In this document: piece by piece, positions 46,189-51,827 of the stretch | How positions within the stretch are numbered: position 1 is the first letter of the stretch | Layout of the letters: each line of letters begins with the position of its first letter | NCBI GenBank assembly: GCA_947502495.1 | Contig: CANNAC010000004.1 | Span: 186,001 to 250,000, forward strand | Reading direction: 5' to 3' | Length of the DNA: 64,000 nt | Origin: an uncultured Flavobacteriaceae bacterium | GTDB taxonomy: Bacteria; Bacteroidota; Bacteroidia; Flavobacteriales; Flavobacteriaceae | The notes under the pieces: model-generated | The model's input: only the letters and a program-made list of their open reading frames with translations | Databases searched by the model: none | Told to the model about the DNA's origin: nothing | Position numbers and translations under genes: made by a program

Positions 46189-48963
46189 ATGAACACATAT
46201 AAAGATTACCTTAAAGAGATTGAAGACAGAAAAGAATTAGGTCTTCACCCTAAGCCAATTGATGGTGCTGAATTACTTAGCGAAATTATTACTCAAATTA
46301 AAGATGTAGATAATGCGGATAGAGAAGAATCTCTAAACTTCTTTATTTATAATGTTTTACCTGGTACAACAAGTGCTGCAAGTGTTAAAGCTAAGTTTCT
46401 AAAAGAAATCATTTTAGGAGAGTCTACTGTGGAAGAGATTACTCCAACTTTTGCTTTAGAGCAATTGTCGCACATGAAAGGTGGACCTTCAGTAAAGGTA
46501 TTGTTAGATATAGCTTTAGGTAATGATGCTGGTTTGGCAAAACAGGCTGCTGAAATTTTAAAAACACAAGTTTTCCTTTACGAAGCAGATACTTCCCGTT
46601 TAGAAGAAGCATTCAAAGCAGGTAGTGAAATAGCAAAAGATATTATAGAAAGTTATGCGAAGGCAGAATTTTTCACGAAACTTCCGGAAATAGAGGAAAC
46701 AATAGACGTAGTTACTTATGTTGCTGGAGTTGGTGATATCTCTACCGATTTATTATCTCCAGGAGGAGATGCACACTCAAGATCCGATCGTGAGTTACAT
46801 GGTCAATGTATGTTCGAACATAATAAAGACATGCAAAATGAATTATTAGCTTTAAAAGAACAACATCCAGATAAGCGTGTAATGCTAATTGCAGAAAAAG
46901 GAACCATGGGAGTTGGTTCTTCTAGAATGTCTGGTGTAAACAATGTGGCTTTATGGACAGGTGTTCCTTTTAGTCCATATGTACCATTTATTAATTTTGC
47001 TCCTGTAATTGCAGGGACTAATGGTATTGCTCCAATTTTCTTAACAACAGTTGGTGTAACAGGAGGTATTGGTTTAGATCTTAAAAACTGGGTACAACAA
47101 AAAGATGCAGAAGGAAATACTATTCGTGATGCAGATGGGGAGCCAATATTAAAAGAAATGTATTCTGTAGCTACAGGTACCATTCTTACCATTAATACAA
47201 AAGAGAAAAAATTATACAACGGAGATAAAGAACTTAAAGATATTTCTGCAGCATTTACACCACAAAAAATGGAGTTTATGAAAGCAGGTGGTTCTTATGC
47301 TGTTGTTTTTGGTAAAAAATTACAAACCTTTGCTGCAAAAACCTTAGGAATTGAAGCGCCTCAAGTATATGCTACTTCTAAAGAAGTGTCTATCGAAGGA
47401 CAAGGTTTAACAGCGGTTGAAAAAATATTTAATAAAAATGCAGTAGGAACTTCAGGAGCAACTTTACATGCTGGTTCTTACGTACGTGCAGAAGTTAATA
47501 TCGTAGGTTCTCAAGATACTACAGGATTAATGACTTCTCAAGAATTAGAGATGATGGCTGCTACAGTGATTTCTCCAATTGTGGATGGAGCATACCAATC
47601 TGGTTGTCATACCGCTTCGGTTTGGGATGATAAGTCTAAAGCTAACATTCCAAGATTAATGAGCTTCATGAACGATTTTGGTTTAATTACTGGTCGTGAT
47701 CCTAAAGGGAAGTACTTTCCAATGACAGACGTTATTCATAAAGTACTTAATGATATTACCGTAGGAGATTGGGATATCATTATTGGTGGAGATTCTCACA
47801 CGCGTATGTCTAAAGGTGTTGCTTTTGGAGCAGATTCAGGAACCGTTGCCTTGGCATTAGCTACAGGTGAGGCTTCAATGCCAATTCCAGAGTCGGTTAA
47901 AGTAACTTTTAAAGGACAAATGAAATCGTATATGGATTTCCGTGATGTTGTTCACGCAACACAATCGCAAATGTTAAAACAATTTGGTGGTGAAAACGTA
48001 TTCCAAGGTCGTGTGATCGAAGTACATATTGGTACTTTAACGGCCGATGAAGCATTTACTTTTACAGATTGGACTGCAGAAATGAAAGCAAAAGCATCTA
48101 TTTGTATTTCTGAAGATGATACTTTGATTGAATCTTTAGAGATTGCAAAAGGTCGTATCCAAATCATGATTGAAAAAGGAATGGACAATGCGAAACAAGT
48201 ACTTCAAGGTTTAGTAAATAAAGCAGAAACTAGAATTATAGAGCTTAAAACGGGTATGAAACCATCTTTAAGACCTGATGCTAACGCTAAATATCATGCA
48301 GAAGTTATTATTGATTTAGATGAAATTTCGGAACCAATGATCGCAGATCCAGATGTAAATAACGATGATGTTTCTAAACGTTACACACATGATAATATTA
48401 GACCATTATCTTTTTACGGAGGAACTAAAAAAGTAGATTTAGGTTTCGTAGGATCTTGTATGGTTCACAAAGGGGATATGAAAATATTAGCTCAAATGTT
48501 GAAAAACGTAGAAGCGCAATATGGTAAAGTAGAATTTAAAGCACCTTTAATAGTTGCACCGCCTACTTATAATATTGTAGATGAGTTGAAAGCCGAAGGA
48601 GATTGGGAAGTTTTAGTAAGATACTCTGGTTTCGAGTTCGATGACAATGCGCCTAAAGGAGAAGCACGTACCGGATACGAAAACATGTTATACTTAGAGC
48701 GTCCAGGATGTAACTTATGTATGGGGAACCAAGAAAAAGCGGCACCAGGAGATACAGTAATGGCAACTTCAACTCGTTTATTCCAAGGTAGAGTTGTAAA
48801 AGATTCTGGAGAGAAAAAAGGGGAATCCTTATTGTCTTCTACACCGGTTGTAGTTTTATCTACCATTTTAGGAAGAACTCCTACTATGGCAGAATATGAA
48901 GCTGCTGTAGATGGTATTGTTTTAACAAAATTCAAGCCATCAACTAAACAATTAGTTAGATAA
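46189..48963 (+). CDS. acnB: aconitate hydratase B
   Basis: 924 residues from the ATG at 46189; an in-frame TTG at 46165 would add eight residues, but family proteins begin MNTYKDYLKEIEDRK. An N-terminal HEAT-like domain (about 160 residues, with LEQLSHMKGGPSVKVLLDIA) is followed by the swivel domain and the three catalytic domains, the order of AcnB. The [4Fe-4S] cysteines are in GFVGSCMVHKGDM and GCNLCMGNQ; GGDSHTRMSKGVAFGADSG holds active-site residues. It interconverts citrate and isocitrate. It is followed by a terminator, not by acnA directly. Confidence 0.95.
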   Translation: MNTYKDYLKEIEDRKELGLHPKPIDGAELLSEIITQIKDVDNADREESLNFFIYNVLPGTTSAASVKAKFLKEIILGESTVEEITPTFALEQLSHMKGGPSVKVLLDIALGNDAGLAKQAAEILKTQVFLYEADTSRLEEAFKAGSEIAKDIIESYAKAEFFTKLPEIEETIDVVTYVAGVGDISTDLLSPGGDAHSRSDRELHGQCMFEHNKDMQNELLALKEQHPDKRVMLIAEKGTMGVGSSRMSGVNNVALWTGVPFSPYVPFINFAPVIAGTNGIAPIFLTTVGVTGGIGLDLKNWVQQKDAEGNTIRDADGEPILKEMYSVATGTILTINTKEKKLYNGDKELKDISAAFTPQKMEFMKAGGSYAVVFGKKLQTFAAKTLGIEAPQVYATSKEVSIEGQGLTAVEKIFNKNAVGTSGATLHAGSYVRAEVNIVGSQDTTGLMTSQELEMMAATVISPIVDGAYQSGCHTASVWDDKSKANIPRLMSFMNDFGLITGRDPKGKYFPMTDVIHKVLNDITVGDWDIIIGGDSHTRMSKGVAFGADSGTVALALATGEASMPIPESVKVTFKGQMKSYMDFRDVVHATQSQMLKQFGGENVFQGRVIEVHIGTLTADEAFTFTDWTAEMKAKASICISEDDTLIESLEIAKGRIQIMIEKGMDNAKQVLQGLVNKAETRIIELKTGMKPSLRPDANAKYHAEVIIDLDEISEPMIADPDVNNDDVSKRYTHDNIRPLSFYGGTKKVDLGFVGSCMVHKGDMKILAQMLKNVEAQYGKVEFKAPLIVAPPTYNIVDELKAEGDWEVLVRYSGFEFDDNAPKGEARTGYENMLYLERPGCNLCMGNQEKAAPGDTVMATSTRLFQGRVVKDSGEKKGESLLSSTPVVVLSTILGRTPTMAEYEAAVDGIVLTKFKPSTKQLVR

Positions 48964-48988
48964 TCAACAGATTAGCTTACCATAAATC

Positions 48989-49019
48989 AAAATCCCGAGT
49001 CTTAGATTCGGGATTTTTG
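48989..49019 (+). terminator. terminator after acnB
   Basis: AAATCCCGA pairs with TTCGGGATTT around an eight-base loop and is followed by T residues. The segment TCTTAGATTCGGG recurs in the second hairpin at 49364-49394. Confidence 0.8.
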
Positions 49020-49067
49020 TTTTAAACGCATTTCTATTCATTCTCAAGTATCCGTTGTTGCGTCCAT

Positions 49068-49226
49068 AATTTGGGCGTTACCACAAGGGTCGGGCTTTCC
49101 GCTATATCTTTTTTTAACATCATCGTAAAAAAGGAACAATAGGATAGCATCTTAAATAAACCTTTTAATACGTATTTAGGTCCTTATAAAAAAAAAGGAT
49201 GCCACTGCAATCCCTAACGCAAATAA
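49068..49226. repeat. structured intergenic element between acnB and acnA
   Basis: The ends pair: ATTTG-gg-CGTTA-type sequence near 49069-49080 (GCGTTA at 49075-49080) with TAACGCAAAT near 49215-49224, giving about 10 pairs with a two-base bulge. Inside are GGTCGGGCTTTCCGCTATAT on the left and GGATGCC..GCAATCC on the right. From memory, blocks like these (GGGCGTTACC, GGGTCGGGCTTTCCGC and CAATCCCTAACGC) recur between genes in many Bacteroidetes genomes, which suggests a dispersed repeat or structured RNA remnant. Not coding. Function unknown. Confidence 0.5.
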
Positions 49227-49363: not shown

Positions 49364-49394
49364 AAAAGCCTGAATCTTAGATTCGGGCTTTTTT
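49364..49394 (+). terminator. second terminator-like hairpin in the acnB-acnA gap
   Basis: AAGCCTGAATC pairs with GATTCGGGCTT around a TTA loop (one mismatch-like G-T), followed by six T residues. Shares TCTTAGATTCGGG with the terminator at 48989-49019. No gene lies between the two, so this one has no clear client. Confidence 0.7.
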
Positions 49395-49556
49395 GTGTTT
49401 TAAAGTTTCCGAGTATTATAGAATATATCCTTTTAAATTTGGAGCAAGTACCGCATAGAAAAAACTTATTTTGGTATCATTATTTATATGTTAATTCCGT
49501 TTTTAAAGTCATTCTACATTTTGTATATTAGTAGGATAAAATTAAAACAAAATACT

Positions 49557-51827
49557 ATGGCATTCGATATTGATATGATCAAGAAGGTTTATGCACAAAT
49601 GGCAGAACGCGTGGATAAAGCACGTGAAGTTGTTGGTAAGCCGTTAACACTTTCAGAAAAAATACTATATAATCACCTTTGGGATGGAAGTCCGACCGAG
49701 GCATTCACTAGAGGAAAAGATTATGTAGACTTTGCTCCAGATCGTATTGCTTGTCAAGATGCAACGGCACAAATGGCATTATTGCAATTTATGCAAGCTG
49801 GTAAGCCACAAGTAGCAGTACCAACTACGGTACATTGTGATCACTTAATTCAAGCAAAAGACGGAGCGACAACAGATTTAAAACACGCAAACTCGGTAAG
49901 TAGTGAAGTGTTTGATTTTCTAGCTTCTGTATCTAATAAATATGGTATCGGTTTTTGGAAACCAGGAGCAGGAATTATTCACCAAGTAGTACTTGAAAAT
50001 TATGCATTTCCAGGAGGAATGATGATTGGTACCGATTCCCATACGGTAAATGCTGGTGGATTAGGTATGGTTGCTATTGGAGTTGGTGGAGCAGATGCTG
50101 TAGATGTGATGGCAGGAATGGCTTGGGAGCTTAAATTCCCTAAATTAATAGGTGTTAAATTAACCGGAAAACTTTCAGGTTGGACAGCACCAAAAGATGT
50201 AATATTAAAGGTTGCTGGTATCGTTTCTGCAAAAGGAGGAACGGGAGCAATTGTAGAATATTTCGGACCAGGAGCCACTTCTATGTCTTGTACAGGAAAA
50301 GGAACTATTTGTAATATGGGAGCAGAAATTGGAGCTACCACATCTACATTTGGTTATGATGACTCTATGGAACGCTATTTACGTGCTACCGATAGAGCAG
50401 ATGTTGCAGATGAAGCAAATAAAGTAAGAGAATATTTAACAGGAGATGCAGAAGTGTATGCAAATCCAGAACAATACTTTGATCAAGTTATTGAAATTAA
50501 CTTATCCGAATTAGGACCATTATTAAATGGGCCTTTTACGCCAGATTTATCTACGCCTGTTGGTAAAAAAATGGGAGAACAAGCAAAAGCTAACGATTGG
50601 CCTTTAGCTGTAGAATGGGGTTTAATCGGTTCTTGTACCAACTCTTCGTATGAAGATTTATCCAGAGCATCTTCTATTGCACAACAAGCTTTAGATAAAG
50701 GTTTAAAAATGAAATCAGAACTTGGTATTAACCCAGGATCTGAACAAGTAAGATATACCGCAGCTCGTGATGGTATTTTAGGAATCTTTGAAAAACTAGA
50801 CGCAAAAATATTCACGAATGCTTGTGGACCATGTATCGGACAATGGGCAAGATATAGTGATCCTAAAAATGCACCAAAAAATAGTATCGTACACTCGTTT
50901 AATAGAAACTTTGCGAAACGTGCGGATGGTAATCCAAATACACACGCTTTTGTAGCTTCACCTGAAATAACGGCAGCAATCGCCATTGCAGGTAGATTAG
51001 ATTTTAATCCGTTAACAGATTCTTTAATTAATGAAGAAGGGCAAGAAGTAAGGTTCGATGAGCCAACAGGATGGGAATTACCTCCAAAAGGATTTGCAGT
51101 AGAAGATGCTGGTTTTGTTGAACCAGTTGCAGATGGTAGTAAAGTAGAAGTTTCTGTTAGTCCAACTTCAGAACGTTTACAATTACTTACACCATTTGAA
51201 CCATTAGGGAATACCATTAATGGCGCTAAGCTATTAATTAAAGCTTTTGGAAAATGTACCACAGATCATATTTCTATGGCTGGACCTTGGTTACGCTTTA
51301 GAGGACATCTAGATAATATTTCTAACAACTGTTTAATTGGGGCTGTAAATGCTTTTGGAAAGAAAACAAACTTTGTTAAAAATCAATTAACTGGTGATTT
51401 TGGTGGCGTGCCAGATACTGCAAGAGCATATAAAGCGGCAGGGATAAAAACGGTTGTTGTTGGAGATCATAATTACGGAGAAGGTTCTTCTCGTGAACAT
51501 GCAGCAATGGAGCCAAGACACTTAGGTGTTGCCGCAGTTATTGTAAAATCTTTTGCACGTATTCATGAAACAAACCTTAAAAAACAAGGGATGTTAGGAT
51601 TGACATTTGCTAACGAAGCAGATTACGATTTAATTCAAGAGGATGATACATTTAACTTTACAGATTTAAATGCATTTGCACCCGGAAAACAATTAACATT
51701 AGAAGTGGTTCATGCAGATGGAACTAAAGATATTGTGATGTTGGATCACACCTATAACCAACCACAAATTGATTGGTATAATGAAGGTTCTGCCTTGAAT
51801 TTAATCAAGAAGGAAAATAACTCCTAA
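49557..51827 (+). CDS. acnA: aconitate hydratase A (mitochondrial-like form)
   Basis: 756 residues from the ATG at 49557; an ATG at 49488 is in frame, but family members begin [12 protein letters not shown]. Catalytic blocks: [30 protein letters not shown] near residue 359 and ACGPCIGQW near residue 422 for the three cluster cysteines; a C-terminal swivel domain with [20 protein letters not shown]. This is the compact mitochondrial-type aconitase common in Bacteroidetes, unlike the AcnB enzyme upstream. Both aconitases are encoded within 6 kb. Confidence 0.95.

Follow-up and report, generated by a model that had tools for sequence, protein, structure and literature searches.

The Element between the Two Aconitase Genes

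The window, that is, the whole stretch of 64,000 nucleotides analyzed here, comes from an uncultured Flavobacteriaceae bacterium whose genome is called G000 below; G060, G062 (a single contig), G064, and G065 are its congeners. In the window, two plus-strand genes, acnB (NF006690, ending at 48963) and a mitochondrial-type aconitase gene (TIGR01340, ORF 49488-51827), are separated by a spacer containing an element that cmscan matches to the Rfam family Flavo-1 (RF01705). The match is on the minus strand, from 49225 to 49084, and its 46.6 bits pass the curated gathering cut-off of 42 bits (E = 7e-7 over the whole window), so an element that the earlier note had described from the letters alone, without being able to name it, belongs to a known family. 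The alignment spans a long loop that has no counterpart in the Rfam model.

Table 1. Parts of the Flavo-1 element of the window; sequences are written in the sense of the element.
Feature	Position	Strand	Basis
Whole Flavo-1 element	49069..49224	-	RF01705 match; same element in congeners G060, G062, and G065
Closing stem P1, 5' side, GCGTTA	49215..49220	-	P1 covariation in other copies
P1 extension, ATTT	49221-49224	-	pairs with 49069-49072
Arm A, 5' side, GGGATTGCAGTGGCATCC and T run	49188..49214	-	RF01705 match; covarying arm A pairs
Arm A variable loop	49116..49187	.	28 of 73 aligned columns identical to G065 (left core, 42 of 45)
Arm A, 3' side, A run and GATATAGCGGAAAGCCC	49092..49115	-	RF01705 match; covariation
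Arm B, short form, ACCCTTGTGG	49081..49090	-	not part of the Rfam model; copy alignment and covariation
Closing stem P1, 3' side, TAACGC	49075..49080	-	P1 covariation
Bulge, CC	49073-49074	-	between P1 and outer pairing
Outer pairing partner of 49221-49224	49069-49072	-	sequence reading; other copies

The pairing of the ends proposed in the earlier note is right, GCGTTA with TAACGC and, beyond the two bulged bases, ATTT with AAAT. The interior blocks to which it drew attention, GGTCGGGCTTTCCGC and GGATGCC..GCAATCC, are also present and are parts of the two sides of arm A. Two similar terminator-like hairpins with a TCTTAGATTCGGG core, found by eye, flank the Flavo-1 copy within the acn spacer (48984-49020 and 49368-49396).

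Copies and Distribution

Besides the window copy, G000 contains at least 46 RF01705 matches, 39 of them above the cut-off, as obtained by scoring 150 of 1086 candidates; the element's own DNA, used as a query, finds 62 pieces in this genome at E values up to 10, itself included. A model of our own, R1, has 58 matches in G000, 60 in G062, and 59 in G060, and 74 and 85 matches in G033 and G044, respectively. Within the family, RF01705 matches occur in 42 of 60 genomes, and 18 have no match; G033 has the most, at least 65, a number that equals that of the candidates scored. Across the phylum, R1 applied with stricter filters has matches in 23 of 148 genomes, of which the copy-rich G077, G145, and G191 represent other families, and among the matches listed all are full length (1-88). 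The window copy itself is missed by R1, which gives it 14.5 bits in the wrong register because of its long loop; absences based on R1 are therefore not firm.

Dozens of Flavo-1 copies adjoin unrelated genes. A mechanically called ORF of at least 70 aa encloses the element at 3 of 30 loci in G000 and at none of 30 in G062. Flavo-1 is a dispersed repeat of the ERIC-like kind: multi-copy, intergenic, gene-less, structured, and present in both orientations to genes.

A Three-Way Junction and the Strand That Folds

When 35 copies from G000 are compared, the whole element appears as a three-way junction, of which Rfam models one arm only. The closing stem, P1, is GCGTTA/TAACGC, with covarying variants across the copies (GCG/CGC, GTG/CAC, GCA/TGC, and GCGTG/CACGC); outside it there is usually a bulged C or CC and, further out, ATTT/AAAT. 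Arm A is the part modeled by Rfam, in which a T run and an A run surround a variable loop, which is unconstrained and around 72 bases long in the window copy. Arm B is a stem that varies greatly in sequence and in length, from ACCTTTAGGT up to more than 50 bases. A terminator role for the GGAT..ATCC of the element with its T run was considered and rejected: the variable bases have their covarying partners on the far side of the arm, not in ATCC.

Covariation was counted in an alignment of 27 copies, namely the 35 extracted from G000 minus seven atypical ones and L037, with the loops shortened and with a structure drawn from the same sequences. In this alignment, 93.7% of the cells are paired, and two-sided changes occur at 16 of the 25 pairs; they amount to 90 cells, as against 27.0 +/- 5.9 after shuffling and 6-17 in slid controls. 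Further pair types, one of five covariation measures, are weakly above the shuffles, 18 out of 500 of which reach it. A larger alignment, fitted to the model and comprising 87 distinct copies from seven genera, has 94.9% of its cells paired, two-sided changes at 21 of the 25 pairs, and 260 such cells versus 60 shuffled. The single sequence is uninformative in this respect, the folding of the window copy alone being not significantly above that of shuffles (RNA z of 0.14 for the minus strand and -1.40 for the plus strand; DNA z of -1.34 for the plus strand), so that it is the copies and their covariation that place the element beyond chance. Both the other copies and the covarying pairs on which the earlier note had made its proposal depend are thus there.

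Within the 27 copies, four G.A juxtapositions (A14.G58, G17.A55, A19.G53, and G22.A50) are near-invariant, and the neighboring Watson-Crick pairs vary freely: columns A14, G58, A55, A19, G53, G22, and A50 are invariant, and G17 is nearly so. The complementary strand would show pyrimidine mismatches at these four places.

Which strand folds can also be approached by counting the wobble pairs. Strand-symmetric mutation without selection would lead to equal numbers of G.T and A.C. In the core of 157 copies, from which pair 10-77, the T-run/A-run pairs, and arm B were left out, the sense strand has 50 G.T and 11 A.C, a count made on model-fitted alignments of related copies, orthologues included. 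The excess is found both in the 72 copies with both neighboring genes against the sense strand (26 G.T versus 5 A.C) and in the 36 copies with both neighbors along it (9 versus 0). It is not found in the three copies for which no gene is called on the 5' side (3 versus 4) or in the T-run/A-run pairs A2 and A3 (9 G.T and 11 A.C); arm B has 36 G.T versus 4 A.C. Because G.T exceeds A.C even where it is the opposite strand that the neighboring mRNAs contain, selection appears to have favored folding of the sense strand, which would therefore fold either as single-stranded DNA or as an independent sense transcript. For the window copy, this means that the minus strand appears to be the one that folds, as DNA or in a transcript of its own; the aconitase mRNA has the opposite strand. 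Tolerance of G.U and G.A pairs is typical of RNA too.

Neighboring Genes, Promoters, and Transcription

In 20 of 52 copies in G000, 22 of 60 in G062, and 9 of 30 in G060, a gene running into the element has its stop codon at most 15 nt from the 3' end of the element; for the 5' end, the counts are 7, 9, and 5, respectively. These distances are approximate, the ORFs having been called mechanically with a minimum of 60 or 70 aa. The two sides differ by a paired Wilcoxon test in G000 (p 0.0003) and G062 (p 0.001), with orthologues common to the genomes. One explanation would be that the element belongs to the untranslated regions of the neighboring mRNAs, at their 3' or 5' ends, as a terminator, a stabilizer, or a leader. 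However, the two sides do not differ significantly in G060 (p 0.07), nor do they in six other genera, where 9 of 55 copies have the 3' end and one the 5' end near a stop codon and the distances are alike (p 0.31). Moreover, both orientations occur, and an mRNA running against the sense strand has the strand that is not selected to fold (the 72 copies above). A role in untranslated regions is accordingly very improbable.

Another possibility is that Flavo-1 is the non-coding RNA that Rfam, which types it as sRNA, takes it for, with a small sense transcript from each copy, either as a family of sRNAs or as an RNA that titrates a protein. The table of PMC2864571, in the part available, lists Flavo-1 for Bacteroidetes as probably an RNA and not cis-regulatory; it is likewise given as a probable RNA or small RNA, with its role unknown, in the available parts of PMC2864571, PMC9723704, and PMC9029176, the last of which is a review that has it in a section on the most abundant small RNAs. 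The strong covariation and the excess of G.T over A.C on one strand are what such an RNA would display.

Promoters have been sought upstream of the copies. The word TAnnTTTG is a flavobacterial promoter word; it is not in excess there, with 6 of 53 copies versus 5.7 after shuffling in G000 and 5 of 29 versus 4.2 in other genera. A stricter two-box pattern is found in 3 of 53 copies in G000, where 0.8 are expected, a point for the RNA, and in 1 of 29 versus 0.5 in the other genera. Orthologous copies from different genera have dissimilar 5' flanks, as judged by eye, and there are dozens of copies in each genome, which also speaks against a small RNA from each. According to the part of PMC9723704 available, Flavo-1 matches in F. 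psychrophilum lie indistinctly in the sense or the antisense of transcripts, and many lie outside transcribed regions. It is this, together with the lack of a clear promoter excess, that leads us to prefer DNA over RNA as the folding molecule; an independent RNA is the main rival to this DNA reading and a real, if minority, possibility. Of the earlier note's alternatives, a dispersed mobile repeat or a structured RNA, the dispersal and the structure have both held, and the RNA nature has the same minority standing.

Conserved Places

Orthologues of the window copy are present in G060, G062, and G065; the acn-spacer element is absent from the congener G064, and the acnB query has no match in two other congeners. 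A comparison between the window and G065 gives 42 of 45 identical positions for the left core and 30 of 36 for the right core (the last four bases of which are flank), as against 173 of 202 for the acnB coding sequence, 72 of 106 for the upstream spacer, and 28 of 73 for the loop, which is unrecognizable. In a named collection of 80 acnB loci, part of which are cut short, R1 finds a copy in one acn spacer, that of Polaribacter sp. MSW5, in the same orientation. As R1 can overlook copies with long loops, an Rfam scan was added for 40 of these loci, with the same single spacer copy as the result.

The location of the element between two genes for the same step had led the earlier note to raise the possibility of a regulatory RNA, and a regulatory RNA specific to the aconitase pair might also be suggested by the Polaribacter copy. 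What was found goes the other way: the folding strand is antisense to both genes and so is not in the acn mRNA, the element is absent in G064, a spacer copy is rare (1 of 80 loci by R1 and 1 of 40 by Rfam), and dozens of members of the same family adjoin unrelated genes. Regulation of acn is thus unsupported, and an RNA of this kind is scarcely credible. Flavo-1 resembles a folded DNA element more closely than an RNA that regulates the acn genes.

Flavo-1 copies also lie 2.4-2.7 kb past acnB, at four Algibacter loci and at one Flavobacterium locus. The Algibacter copies are at a near-equal distance, 2.5-2.7 kb past the end of the gene (L065:6258-6376, L066:6277-6434, L076:6077-6188, and L081:6205-6353), and perhaps represent another place-conserved copy, here in a named genus.

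Genome-wide, 78 reciprocal ortholog pairs exist among three congeners. Conservation of place extends to five other genera, where 9 of 31 loci have both neighbors and the orientation as in a spacer in which the window's genus has the element (L337, L355, L345, L362, L356, L350, L342, and two in L379); the loci of other genera are a non-random sample, made up of the best-scoring loci, five a genome (L341, too short, was dropped), plus copies from stretches of G033 and G044. One-sided neighbor matches, with L352, L384, L339, and L359, were excluded. The chance expectation, a rough, uncomputed estimate from about 60 copies among some 3000 spacers, is less than one. One further place is common to G017 and G036, where the copy is 20 nt before a gene for a ComEB-like deaminase; the G017 copy L359:2856-2949 is outside the examined set. 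Details of position are sometimes kept as well: a copy lies 15 nt before the gene for 3-hydroxyanthranilate 3,4-dioxygenase in both G000 and G044, and L305 of G062 and L342 of G017 align in their distance from the stop codon and in their long arm B. In G033, none of 25 copies has both neighbors as in the window's genus at the thresholds used, and a loop sequence particular to G033 recurs in several copies, which, as far as sequence can tell, suggests recent spread. Conservation of place could partly be the result of repeated insertion at hot spots.

Exchange of Arms at Fixed Sites

Arm A occurs in more than one form. In type b (TTTGTTNGAGCTC ... AGCGA), P1, the base of arm A, and arm B are as in type a; seven of eight type b loci have no Rfam match at E values up to 0.1, and the eighth, L191, has a score of 32.9, which falls short of the cut-off. 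G000 and G062 have different arms at seven sites where the neighbors are the same: L147/L252, L152/L259 (L311), L001/L264, L028/L263, L143/L319, L327/L203, and L331/L221. Four of these exchanges (L143/L319, L152/L311, L327/L203, and L331/L221) are among the 34 ortholog pairs between G000 and G062, and the L147, L001, and L028 sites are outside that list. The exchanges were counted by reading, as automatic arm typing is wrong for L033 and L295; L154/L312, which are on opposite strands in one spacer, were not counted, and L336/L275 and L277/L320, the immediate flanks of which differ, were excluded. Arms also differ across genera at common places (L305/L342, L309/L350, and L212/L379), and arm B and the loops change alone too (L144/L257, L149/L253, and L163/L255).

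A G.G mismatch is found at the base of arm A in L319 and L327, as if the two sides derived from different copies. The simplest reading is that the arms are exchanged by conversion or template switching between copies via their short conserved bases. A further distal arm A type, AAAGCCCACA ... GAGGACTTGT, is present in L354, L360, and L366 of G036 and in L379:5674-5775 of G044.

The Search for a Mover or Partner

Other dispersed extragenic structured repeats are the REPs and REPINs, which have a RAYT (Y1) transposase as partner (PMC3116915 and PMC2817692, in the parts available). G000 has one Y1, RAYT-like transposase gene above the cut-off, L061 (around G000:C9:21318-21554), and a second, sub-threshold match, L062. 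The L061 gene sits in a dense cluster of REPs of its own, GCGCGGATTTGCAATCCGTG, and not of Flavo-1; GGATTGCA is common to both. Nor do Y1 genes track Flavo-1, as G017, G049, G005, G039, and G003 have 13-29 copies and no Y1 match. Because copy-rich genomes lack Y1 matches and the RAYT of G000 has its own REP, the Y1/RAYT partner was rejected, and Flavo-1 differs here from the REP/REPIN systems, in which the partner gene is present and linked.

A different precedent is that of IS200/IS605 transposition, for which a folded single DNA strand is the substrate, as it would be for Flavo-1. Flavo-1, though, has no replication-strand bias in G062, where 33 of 60 copies are with the leading strand (p 0.52) if the terminus is opposite dnaA and 31-34 of 60 if other termini are assumed; the origin was set by dnaA, the GC skew in 20 stretches being too noisy. 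A resemblance to integron attC sites was dropped by eye.

Autonomous relatives were sought in a few stretches and with one pattern scan. Viral contigs have no match to one exact half-element pattern, phage records have no match to the element, and plasmids yield one 27-base match, on a Capnocytophaga plasmid. The ends pair over about 6-10 bp, but no clean empty site or target-site duplication was found at the loci compared. In G033, two near-identical copies of Flavo-1 in the same orientation bracket an ORF of 478 aa beside four tandem similar genes (L367:2291-4142, G033:C45). This ORF, from the one close pair read in the search for a bracketed transposase gene, has no match in NCBIfam or Pfam. 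The Y1, plasmid, phage, viral, and G033 bracketing searches found no mobilizing enzyme, and no binding protein came to light.

These results bear on whether the copies are simply remnants of transposition in trans, that is, a passive miniature mobile element (MITE or REP-like) of no use to the host. A multi-copy, mostly intergenic distribution with no gene of its own, the loop sequences common within G033, and a patchy presence, with 18 of 60 family genomes lacking a match, are all consistent with this. Yet places are conserved between genera, which, should complete genomes bear it out, a neutral repeat would not survive unless repaired by conversion; the core evolves more slowly than coding sequence in the comparison with G065, and there are compensatory changes; the lack of Y1 matches in the five copy-rich genomes and of matches to an exact half-element pattern in viral contigs and to the element in phage records argues in the same direction. 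A passive element is, on balance, rather unlikely. As for the word "mobile" in the earlier note, spread must have happened, as the common loops of G033 indicate, but many copies in the window's genus are stable in place, and neither a mobilizing enzyme nor a clean empty site came to light.

An Ancient Repeat Proposed to Act as Folded DNA

The nearest likeness in kind is to the enterobacterial ERIC repeats, or intergenic repeat units, which are of similar size (RU-1, 127 bp; RU-2, 168 bp; RU-3, 103 bp) and which the available part of PMC2759123 describes as small mobile-looking sequences in many intergenic regions. There are also differences: ERIC is from another phylum, and Flavo-1 has a three-way junction, interchangeable arms, and sites shared across genera. 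ERIC repeats are gene-less, foldable, and found in both orientations. Our best reading, to which we give a probability of roughly 0.5, is that Flavo-1 is an ERIC-like dispersed DNA repeat that is ancient and selected, and that the window copy is one such chromosomal intergenic repeat, an extended Flavo-1 acting through one folded DNA strand.

A possible sequence of events is as follows. The sense strand would become single-stranded during replication or transcription or under supercoiling, and then fold; a protein would bind the folded strand, recognizing it by its junction and its G.A-rich arm and not by its loops; and this binding would give each site a role in the chromosome, at the level of the nucleoid, the fork, or a transcript boundary, which purifying selection would preserve. 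Copies would spread rarely, and resident copies would swap arms by ectopic conversion or template switching via the short conserved arm bases. An unlikely variant is that Flavo-1 behaves as a drive-like DNA element: a nuclease or recombinase would read the folded sense strand of the junction and copy arms between resident elements, thereby keeping dozens of sites at fixed places over genus-level time with distal arms that are interchangeable.

The relation to RF01705 is one of extension. Arm A of the window element scores above the gathering cut-off, and both are from Bacteroidetes, whereas the 76-position model corresponds to one arm and is missing the closing stem, arm B, and the alternative distal arms. 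The available parts of PMC2864571, PMC9723704, and PMC9029176 do not mention the multi-copy, place-conserved behavior of Flavo-1, and the literature on its sequence words and on flavobacterial repeats, PMC12306157 included, was not found to treat it as a dispersed DNA element; subscription papers are mostly not represented in that body of work. Flavo-1 is, then, a known family of which the anatomy and behavior were not found described in the literature covered. If it is a folded DNA repeat, its listing among small RNAs in the available part of PMC9029176, and many genome annotations, would be misleading.

Deletion tests could start from the places common to several genera, and the exchange of arms at fixed sites documents, in natural genomes, conversion through short homologies among dispersed repeats of bacteria, a process that is otherwise hard to observe.

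Two other repeats occur within Flavo-1. One is small and palindromic, CCTGCCTGCCGGCAGGCAGG with near variants; it is inserted in the copies L037, L042, L182, L200, L255, and L300, repeatedly at an identical position on the 3' side of arm A. The other, a dispersed repeat (GTTCGAGTG ... GTATCGAGAACAAG), lies within the arm A loops of many copies (L014, L022, L035, L037, L197, and L199), so that the loops of Flavo-1 seem to tolerate foreign repeats.
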